Source: Parvibaculum sp. (GTDB taxonomy: Bacteria; Pseudomonadota; Alphaproteobacteria; Parvibaculales; Parvibaculaceae). Taken from it: a DNA stretch of 64,000 bases. The stretch is from positions 1 to 64,000 of the forward strand of contig NZ_JAUYUS010000009.1 of assembly GCF_030694575.1 (NCBI RefSeq), in the 5' to 3' direction. Below the pieces are notes generated by a model. That model worked only from the letters and a program-made list of their open reading frames with translations. It ran no database searches and was not told the origin of the DNA. Made by a program: the position numbers and the translations under genes. Shown in pieces: positions 53,096 through 56,286 of the stretch (positions are counted from its first letter, which is position 1; every line of letters begins with the position of its first letter).

Positions 53096-53170
53096 TGGTG
53101 GGCGTGACAGGGATTGAACCTGTGACCCCTTCGATGTCAACGAAGTGCTCTCCCGCTGAGCTACACGCCC
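53096..53170 (-). tRNA. tRNA-Val (anticodon GAC)
   Basis: The minus strand folds to a full cloverleaf: acceptor GGGCGTG with CACGCCC, D arm TAGCTCAGCGGGAGAGC, anticodon stem CTTCG/CGAAG with loop TTGACAT (GAC), T arm GGTTCAATCCC, and an encoded ACCA 3-prime end. Confidence 0.97.
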
Positions 53171-53952: not shown

Positions 53953-54909
53953 ATGGACCTTGCCTCCGAAACAGCAGCGGACGATTCGAATGCCGGGGCG
54001 GCGTCCTTCGAGGCGGACGAAGCCGATCTGTTCGAACGGCCGATACTGGTAGAGCGGCCGCAGCGGCAACTCATCCCCTTCGTCTTCAGTTCGCCCCATA
54101 GCGGCCGGAACTACCCCGACGCTTTCGTGGCGGGTTCCAATCTCGATCCGGTGACGCTGCGCCGCTCGGAAGACTGCTTTGTCGAGGAGATTTTCGGTGG
54201 CGTCGTGCCGCTCGGAGCACCGCTCCTGCAGGCCCGGTTCCCCCGCGCCTATCTGGACGCCAACCGGGAGCCCTACGAACTCGATCCCACCATGTTTGCC
54301 GAACCCCTGCCGCCGCACGTCAATACACGCTCGCTCCGCGTCGCAGGAGGCCTCGGCACGATCGCACGGGTGGTGGCCGACTCGGCTGAAATCTACCGCG
54401 CCCCCCTCGCCTATGCCGAAGCGGAGCAGCGCATCCGGCATCTCTACATGCCGTTCCACGAGACACTGCGGGAACTCCTTGAGGAAACGCTGGCGGCCTT
54501 CGGCCATGCGGTGCTGATCGATTGCCATTCCATGCCTTCTGTGGGGGGCCCCGCCGACGACGATAACGGCTTCGACCGGCCCGACATCGTGCTGGGCGAC
54601 CGCTACGGCACGTCCTGCGGCGGTTCCCTGACGGCGGAGGCCGAACGCGCGCTGAAACGCCTTGGCTACAGCGTCGCCCGCAACAACCCCTATGCCGGCG
54701 GCTTCAATACCGAACATTACGGCCGGCCGGCACGCGGGCTCCACGCGCTGCAGATCGAGATCAACCGCGCGCTCTACATGGATGAGGCGCGGCTGGAGCG
54801 AACAGACCGTTTTGTGCAGGTGCGGGATGATATGACCGCCTTCGCGGCCGAGCTCGCTGGCTATGACTGGTCCGCCCTTGGCGGCGGCGTGCGCGGCGCC
54901 GCCTTCTGA
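53953..54909 (+). CDS. N-formylglutamate amidohydrolase family protein
   Basis: The 318-aa FGase-family enzyme has FVFSSPHSGRNYPDAF, the RFPRAYLDANREPYELDPTMF segment, VLIDCHSMPS and NPYAGGFNTEHYGRP. It probably hydrolyses N-formyl or N-acyl amino acids. It differs from the family member at 24717-25556 (other subgroup, longer N-terminus), so they are not recent duplicates. Neighbour of cpdR across a 300-bp spacer (53655-53952) in which no other gene is seen. Confidence 0.85.
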   Translation: MDLASETAADDSNAGAASFEADEADLFERPILVERPQRQLIPFVFSSPHSGRNYPDAFVAGSNLDPVTLRRSEDCFVEEIFGGVVPLGAPLLQARFPRAYLDANREPYELDPTMFAEPLPPHVNTRSLRVAGGLGTIARVVADSAEIYRAPLAYAEAEQRIRHLYMPFHETLRELLEETLAAFGHAVLIDCHSMPSVGGPADDDNGFDRPDIVLGDRYGTSCGGSLTAEAERALKRLGYSVARNNPYAGGFNTEHYGRPARGLHALQIEINRALYMDEARLERTDRFVQVRDDMTAFAAELAGYDWSALGGGVRGAAF

Positions 54910-54957
54910 GCGGACCGACAAGACCCTGGACTTTCAGCCAGATTTTGGGCTTGAGAC

Positions 54958-54987
54958 AAAAAAAGGGGCCCTGGCGAACCAGGGCCC
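54958..54987 (-). terminator. Intrinsic terminator of the candidate sRNA
   Basis: A perfect 9-bp stem (54966-54974 with 54979-54987) and CGAA/TTCG loop are followed on the minus strand by seven T residues (54964-54958). Confidence 0.85.
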
Positions 54988-55036
54988 AAGTTTAGGGAGG
55001 AAACGCCCAGGAAGGGCTACGGCATCAGGAGAAAGT
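54958..55036 (-). ncRNA. Candidate alpha-r8/MmgR-type small RNA
   Basis: On the minus strand the motif TTTCCTCCCT (55003-54994) is followed by AAACTT and a strong terminator with a T-run. This exact 10-nt motif before a terminator is, as I recall, invariant in MmgR (alpha-r8) RNAs, which limit polyhydroxybutyrate storage in Sinorhizobium meliloti. The 5-prime end is a guess based on the roughly 77-nt size of that RNA. No protein-coding frame fits. Confidence 0.6.
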
Positions 55037-55067
55037 CTCAACCAATGCCGCGATGCACAAGATGACA

Positions 55068-55194
55068 TTGCGCTGCACACAAATCAAGAGAGAAATGAGG
55101 GCAGTGCAGCAAAAACAATCACTGCCCAACTAATTGGCATCACGCGACTTTTTTGGTCTCGCGTCCCCCCGATTTGCCAAAATGTGCAGCGCAA
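55068..55194. promoter_or_regulatory. TGC-rich inverted elements upstream of the sRNA
   Basis: TTGCGCTGCACA (55068-55079) recurs as its exact reverse complement at 55183-55194. Between them GGGCAGTG and CACTGCCC (55099-55106, 55120-55127) form an 8-bp hairpin whose flank also reads GTGCAGCAA. The spacing and TGC/GCA content recall PhaR-type sites of storage-polymer genes. The rest of 55037-55263 shows no gene. Confidence 0.4.
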
Positions 55195-55263
55195 CAAACC
55201 GTGATCAGCGCCTTCCCCGCGACCGCCGTTTCCGCCAAAAAGGTTTCTTAACGCCTACCGGCC

Positions 55264-56286
55264 ATGATGAAGCCCGAAACAAGCCGCGCAGGGGTCTCCG
55301 GACGCGCGGGAAGCGGGATGGGATCAATGGCCGCCGGTATACGCCCTCCGAAATCGCAAGCGCGAAATTTCGCTCTGCGCGCCGCATTCTGCGGGTCGTT
55401 GGCTTTGCTGATCGCGGCAGCGGCAACCCCGCGAGATGCCATGAGCCGCGAGAGCGACGGCATGGCGTTGAACGACCCATCCATTGCCTGCGAGGATGCC
55501 GCAATCCATCACGAACAGGCGAACGGCCTGCCCCGCGCCTTGCTGGCGGCGGTGGCGCTGGCCGAGTCGGGCCGCTACAGCCCGAAGACGCGGAAGGCGC
55601 GCGCCTGGCCCTGGACCATCAACGCCGAAGGCCGCCCCTACTACTTCAAGACCAAGCAGGAAGCGATCGCGACGACGCAGCGGCTGCTCGACAGCGGCAT
55701 GCGCTCCATCGACGTCGGCTGCATGCAGGTCAACCTGCGCTACCACCCCGAAGCATTTCTCAGCCTGGAGGAAGCGTTCGACCCGATGGCGAACGTCGCC
55801 TATGGCGCGAACTTCCTGATGCGCCTGCGCGACCAGACGGGCTCATGGCCGAGCGCCGTCGCCGGCTATCATTCACAGACCGCCGCGCGCGGCGGCCGCT
55901 ATTTCGCACGCGTCATCCGCATCTGGGAGAACGAGCGCGAGCATGTCGCGAAGCGCAGCTACGCCGCCCTGACCGCGAAGATCGACGTGTCGGGCCTGTT
56001 GAAGCCCGCCATCGGACACAGCGTGAATATTCTGCGGGAGCCCGCGACCGAAACCGTCGTCGCCTATCGCCCGGCACCGAAGGTTCTCGACCCGATACCC
56101 GGACAGAACGTGCGCGAGACGGCGAGCGCCGCCGTCGGCCTGCGCCTCTCGATCGCGGACGAGGACGTTGCGGAAGCGACGGCCACGGCAACCGCCATGG
56201 CAAGACACGAGCCGCGTGTGCTCGATCCGTTGCCGGCGGCAGCCGGACCGACGCGTGTCGCGGAAGCGTCACTGCCCGGGGCTTAA
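55264..56286 (+). CDS. SLT-domain lytic transglycosylase
   Basis: The 340-aa exported protein has a transglycosylase SLT domain at about 78-190. It shows HEQANGLPRALLAAVALAES with the catalytic Glu, VGCMQVNLRYHP, MANVAYGANFL and AGYHSQTAARGGRYFARVI. The N-terminus has a long basic region before the hydrophobic signal (ALRAAFCGSLALLIAAAA), so the true start may be a later codon. It cleaves peptidoglycan glycan strands. It stands 26 bp before the next gene. Confidence 0.8.
   Translation: MMKPETSRAGVSGRAGSGMGSMAAGIRPPKSQARNFALRAAFCGSLALLIAAAATPRDAMSRESDGMALNDPSIACEDAAIHHEQANGLPRALLAAVALAESGRYSPKTRKARAWPWTINAEGRPYYFKTKQEAIATTQRLLDSGMRSIDVGCMQVNLRYHPEAFLSLEEAFDPMANVAYGANFLMRLRDQTGSWPSAVAGYHSQTAARGGRYFARVIRIWENEREHVAKRSYAALTAKIDVSGLLKPAIGHSVNILREPATETVVAYRPAPKVLDPIPGQNVRETASAAVGLRLSIADEDVAEATATATAMARHEPRVLDPLPAAAGPTRVAEASLPGA

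Follow-up and report, generated by a model that had tools for sequence, protein, structure and literature searches.

A MmgR (alpha-r8) small RNA gene with PhaR-type operator sequences in Parvibaculum

The alpha-r8 locus and its RNA structure

Scanning the whole 64-kb stretch of Parvibaculum DNA analyzed here (the window) with Rfam cmscan returned two matches, one to RF00519 (suhB/mmgR, "Makes More Granules Regulator RNA") and one to a tRNA. The RF00519 match lies on the minus strand at 54951–55024, covers the full length of the model (positions 1–77, all 77) and scores 77.6 bits (E = 2.4e-14), well above the gathering score of 41 bits. The initial annotation had proposed an MmgR (alpha-r8) small RNA (sRNA) at this place and had named the covariance-model search as one way to check it; the outcome of that search, an amidohydrolase neighbor, the architecture of the family and a promoter operator of the PhaR type all agree with the proposal. 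We conclude that the locus is a genuine MmgR (alpha-r8) sRNA gene, an ordinary and well-supported member of a known sRNA family. The tRNA gene, at 53099–53170, has the anticodon GAC (valine) as read from the Rfam alignment and shares about 97% identity with one from a Shinella record.

Two plus-strand genes flank the sRNA. The convergent neighbor at 53953–54909 encodes an N-formylglutamate amidohydrolase (FGase; PF05013, E = 3.2e-77) whose protein is 75–84% identical to proteins in many Parvibaculum genomes, and the divergent neighbor at 55264–56286 encodes a transglycosylase SLT-domain protein (PF01464, E = 1.7e-7). Linkage to the amidohydrolase gene is the classical location of alpha-r8 (PMC12559287). 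Such linkage is the rule for a sole or main copy. Among 80 amidohydrolase loci of named genomes, 58 carried the motif in convergent orientation on the opposite strand within 900 bp; some of the remaining loci were cut by contig ends and others came from more distant lineages.

The minus strand around the core reads ...GTAGCCCTTCCTGGGCGTTTCCTCCCTAAACTTGGGCCCTGGTTCGCCAGGGCCCCTTTTTTTGTC... and contains the 10-mer TTTCCTCCCT at 55003–54994, as initially annotated; it is the only copy in the 64-kb window, where 0.09 would be expected by chance. The same ten positions (54994–55003, minus strand) form the anti-Shine-Dalgarno seed UUUCCUCCCU, an exact match to the family motif, which was identical in all 24 genus sequences aligned and unpaired in every fold computed for the window copy and a wider set of 17 sequences. 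Downstream, the strong terminator that had been noted proved to be a hairpin of 9 pairs, 8 of them G-C (GGGCCCTGG-TTCG-CCAGGGCCC, 54987–54966, minus strand), followed by a C and seven T ending at 54958. Sequence, the RF00519 match and a terminator call all identify 54958–54987 on the minus strand as a Rho-independent terminator with its U-run.

Upstream of the seed, two further stem-loops are found on the minus strand. SL2 (GCCC UUCCU GGGC, 55005–55017) belongs to the Rfam consensus and is invariant across the genus, so that covariation is uninformative for it. SL1 (55019–55051) is missing from the Rfam model and covaries: in the 24-member genus alignment, both bases change in 4 of its 14 pairs. 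Over the entire structure, 95.5% of the cells in this alignment are paired and 6 pairs show double changes, a number reached by 1 of 500 shuffles, with slid controls giving 0 or 1. The predicted transcript folds at −44.6 kcal/mol compared with −28.1 for shuffled sequences (z = −5.5). Folding gave the same three stems in all 17 sequences of the wider set, and the 5' stem also occurs in relatives of most other families, being shorter in Rhizobiaceae. As reviews already describe S. meliloti MmgR with three stem-loops (PMC7143759), SL1 is an extended form of a feature of the family and not a new one. Its addition defines the predicted transcript better than the Rfam model does. It also bears on the span first given for the sRNA, 54958–55036: its 3' end, at the close of the T-run, stands, but its 5' end splits SL1, and the predicted transcript extends to about 55051.

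Promoter elements and PhaR-type operators

The genus alignment points to a minus-strand promoter with a predicted −35 element TTGATT (55082–55087) separated by 17 nt from a predicted −10 element CATCTT (55059–55064), which is ATATT- or TATATT-like in relatives. A sigma-70 consensus scan called no promoter at the sRNA locus, and the prediction therefore rests on conservation. The spacer between the two elements carries a PhaR/AniA operator core, TGCAGCGCA (55069–55077), that fits YGCRNYGCR (PMC12542648), and the full 21-bp PhaR motif is present around it with one mismatch (55063–55083). In S. meliloti mmgR, CAATTGTGCACCGCAGCATTA lies 13 nt before the transcription start and is efficiently bound by PhaR (PMC12542648). 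Applying this spacing places the predicted start at 55050–55052, in agreement with a position 7 nt after the predicted −10 element. Taken with the RF00519 match and the fold, promoter spacing and operator-to-start distance predict a minus-strand transcript of about 94 nt at 54958–55051. The sequences show family membership, synteny, a covarying structure, conserved operators and genes for PhaR, phasins, polyhydroxybutyrate (PHB) synthases and Hfq; transcription of the locus, PhaR binding, the targets and an effect on PHB are inferred.

A second PhaR-like core, TGCATCGCG (55049–55057), lies over the predicted start. Most genus members keep this core; L004 and the family members L027, L029, L030 and L031 lack it. 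Because it overlaps the SL1 stem, part of its conservation may reflect RNA structure. Two more copies of the 21-bp motif, each with one mismatch, are found upstream of the −35 element (55094–55114), where conservation is only partial, and 65 bp before the SLT transglycosylase gene (55179–55199). Through the latter motif, the transglycosylase gene could also be under PhaR control.

The bare core YGCRNYGCR occurs often in GC-rich DNA and was uninformative in this window, with 75 matches, fewer than in shuffled sequences; three stricter controls were therefore used, namely the 21-bp motif, conservation and position. With one mismatch allowed, the 21-bp motif occurs 7 times in the 64-kb window, and 3 of these sites fall within the 354-bp gap that holds the sRNA (Poisson P about 1e-5). 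All 30 aligned loci, from the genus and its relatives, have the spacer core, and its variants stay within the consensus. As to position, 41 of 51 named amidohydrolase-linked copies have a core 40–90 nt upstream of the seed. These sequence data make PHB-linked control of the sRNA promoter, presumably exerted by PhaR, well supported. Simple patterns matched no NtrC-like or sigma-54-like site near the sRNA; S. meliloti mmgR is NtrC-activated.

The genome also encodes the corresponding machinery. Its phaR gene adjoins a thiolase gene, and two phasin genes, two PHB synthase-type genes (phaC) and Hfq are present. One phasin gene (L040, contig C123) is preceded by the same PhaR boxes at −137 and −85, which are conserved in its orthologues.

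Distribution in the genus and copies on phages

Parvibaculum is a genus of hydrocarbon and surfactant degraders. The alpha-r8 gene scored above the cut-off in 25 of the 27 Parvibaculum genomes searched, the two exceptions (G002 and G015) giving weak matches only, and, more widely, 47 of 61 relatives had a match. Besides the window copy, the 3.8-Mb genome contains two weaker RF00519 matches, on contigs C57 and C84. The first (L003:1501–1576, 31.6 bits) was rejected, being the rplQ terminator without the 10-mer; a terminator alone can thus reach about 30 bits with this model, and RF00519 matches of about 29–35 bits in Parvibaculum should be checked for the 10-mer. The second (L002:1501–1577, 43.6 bits) passes Rfam and keeps the hairpins, with a degenerate seed, TTTCCCCGCA. 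It sits downstream of an ORF of no assigned identity, and the three ORFs neighboring it had no PHROGs match. Given the missing 10-mer in one and the degenerate seed in the other, the window copy is the only intact alpha-r8 gene found in the genome. A search for a CrfA-like sponge yielded five perfect complements of the 10-mer at other places in the genome, none of them an obvious sRNA: three fall within coding frames and two at gene starts.

Phages and prophages commonly carry alpha-r8 RNAs as well. A sequence scan found the core CGTTTCCTCCCTNNACTTG on at least 120 viral contigs (L236–L355; for example L272:247–325, L275:2033–2106 and L344:5165–5242), which are predicted viral contigs, some of which could include host flanks. 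Of 20 viral copies tested, 13 pass the Rfam gathering score. Several adjoin genes for terminase, primase, a Sak4-like annealing protein or a repressor, and among the matches listed, the flanking DNA retrieved held no amidohydrolase gene near a viral copy. In a Bradyrhizobium phage record, a shorter stretch of similar sequence lies between genes, 1.3 kb ahead of the terminase gene. Second alpha-r8 copies were also found in other Parvibaculum genomes (L226:742–816, L227:731–810 and L228:663–745); the first adjoins a portal protein gene and the second an Rz-like spanin gene, prophage-like surroundings, and both have intact seeds. Lateral transfer of the alpha-r8 family has already been reported (PMC12559287), and the literature covered on the family, Lagares 2016 excepted, does not mention copies on phages.

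Only 5 of 116 viral copies, among the matches listed, carry a PhaR core 40–90 nt upstream of the seed, which equals the 4–5% rate in random 50-nt windows, whereas host copies nearly always have the operator. One tentative and, on balance, rather doubtful proposal is that the host amidohydrolase-linked alpha-r8 gene is PhaR-controlled across several alphaproteobacterial lineages, and that phage copies with the same seed and no operator impose the same program. If so, an infecting or resident phage could damp storage, uptake and catabolism regardless of the carbon state of the host, and the difference between host and viral copies makes such a bypass of carbon sensing directly testable.

Proposed mechanism, targets and related systems

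We propose the following mechanism. Transcription of the minus strand would begin at about 55051, and the RNA would fold into three hairpins, one at its 5' end, a small one and the terminator, probably leaving UUUCCUCCCU exposed. With Hfq, the seed would pair to the Shine-Dalgarno regions of many mRNAs and block their translation. PhaR (AniA) would repress the promoter by binding between the −35 and −10 elements and probably over the start as well; as PHB accumulates, granules would titrate PhaR away and the RNA would rise, damping carbon storage together with carbon uptake or catabolism. Elsewhere, alpha-r8 RNAs tune carbon storage or uptake, as described for MmgR in S. meliloti (PMC8401924) and for SisA in Caulobacter, where compensatory mutations demonstrated pairing with leaders through the 10-mer, with Hfq (PMC12559287). 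S. meliloti lacking the MmgR core is reported to contain more PHB and more phasin protein at an unchanged level of phasin mRNA (PMC8401924). By analogy with S. meliloti, and given the PhaR operator, the Parvibaculum copy may likewise limit PHB. We are highly confident in the combination of family membership, seed mechanism and PhaR control as the best explanation of the locus, a confidence that leaves aside the choice between storage and uptake or catabolism as output.

At the level of sequence, the initial suggestion of CCUCCC pairing with many leaders is borne out: RGGGAGGAA followed by ATG within 2–9 nt marks 28 start sites in the genome, compared with 2 for the reversed pattern, although any Shine-Dalgarno-like sequence would be enriched at such sites. 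Direct targeting of phasin was not supported, since the seed duplex energies of the two phasin leaders rank at the 12th and 22nd percentiles among 302 gene starts; a predicted phasin-leader site near −53 is off the Shine-Dalgarno sequence and is not conserved. On contig C111, three genes lying close together (L203, L204 and L205), encoding a short-chain dehydrogenase, a linalool dehydratase/isomerase-type protein and an acyl-CoA ligase, all start behind RGGGAGGAA. They are a possible multi-site target operon, judged by these motifs.

The same RNA might instead serve mainly to turn off uptake and peripheral catabolic genes under carbon plenty and affect PHB little or indirectly. In Caulobacter, SisA uses the same 10-mer to repress TonB receptors, transporters and metabolic genes (PMC12559287), and among the Parvibaculum genes whose start codon has an extended seed match, the identifiable ones mostly serve catabolism or transport (ring hydroxylase, P450, HpaB, FAA hydrolase, acyl-CoA dehydrogenase, CoA ligase, enoyl-CoA hydratase and MFS). 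However, the control variant RAGGAGGAA picks out similar kinds of gene (Rieske, acyl-CoA dehydrogenase, MFS and amidohydrolase), so that enrichment of a target class is not claimed, and the PhaR operator links control of the RNA to PHB status. Taken by itself, we put this possibility only slightly short of an even chance. MmgR-like storage and SisA-like uptake or catabolic outputs appear about equally likely and are not exclusive.

A role chiefly in cis, acting on the amidohydrolase mRNA at its 3' end, is very improbable: the layout is convergent, the Rfam match lying about 40 bp from the gene, and is conserved in many genomes, but the RNA does not overlap the amidohydrolase coding sequence, copies at other places, in Caulobacter (PMC12559287) and on phages, have no amidohydrolase neighbor, and conservation falls on the seed and not on complementarity to the neighbor. 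That the hairpin, 57 bp beyond the amidohydrolase stop codon, is a mere terminator of a neighboring gene without an independent sRNA is hardly credible even though a bare terminator such as that after rplQ comes near 30 bits, for the T-run is a minus-strand feature pointing away from the amidohydrolase gene, no minus-strand gene ends there, the 10-mer is invariant, SL1 covaries, the promoter is conserved and the window copy scores 46 bits above the false C57 match.

Read as a probably PhaR-controlled alpha-r8 RNA, the locus brings to Parvibaculum a carbon-storage sRNA whose function has been studied, with a testable predicted PhaR operator. What it adds to the known family is modest, a longer 5' stem and a double PhaR-like operator. 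MmgR of S. meliloti (RF00519) shares the sequence-structure family, the 10-mer seed and the three-stem plan (PMC8401924, PMC7143759), as well as the PhaR/AniA box between −35 and −10 (PMC12542648), which in Parvibaculum is a sequence match. The predicted Parvibaculum start lies 12–14 nt further upstream, so that SL1 is longer (an RNA of about 94 nt versus 77), and a second PhaR-like core lies over it. SisA of Caulobacter crescentus, also an alpha-r8 RNA, shares the 10-mer seed and the amidohydrolase linkage, and its Hfq-dependent repression of leaders has been demonstrated (PMC12559287); it is reported to be nearly constitutive and to be removed by the sponge CrfA. Among the five perfect 10-mer complements in the Parvibaculum genome, no sponge was recognized. 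The suhB element of Corbino et al. 2005 (PMC1273637) shares the unstructured conserved core, the terminator and the occurrence in multiple copies. Its only other conserved structure is reported to be a short 5' helix, and no specific neighbors are reported for it (PMC1273637), whereas the Parvibaculum copy shows covariation in SL1 and a conserved neighbor.
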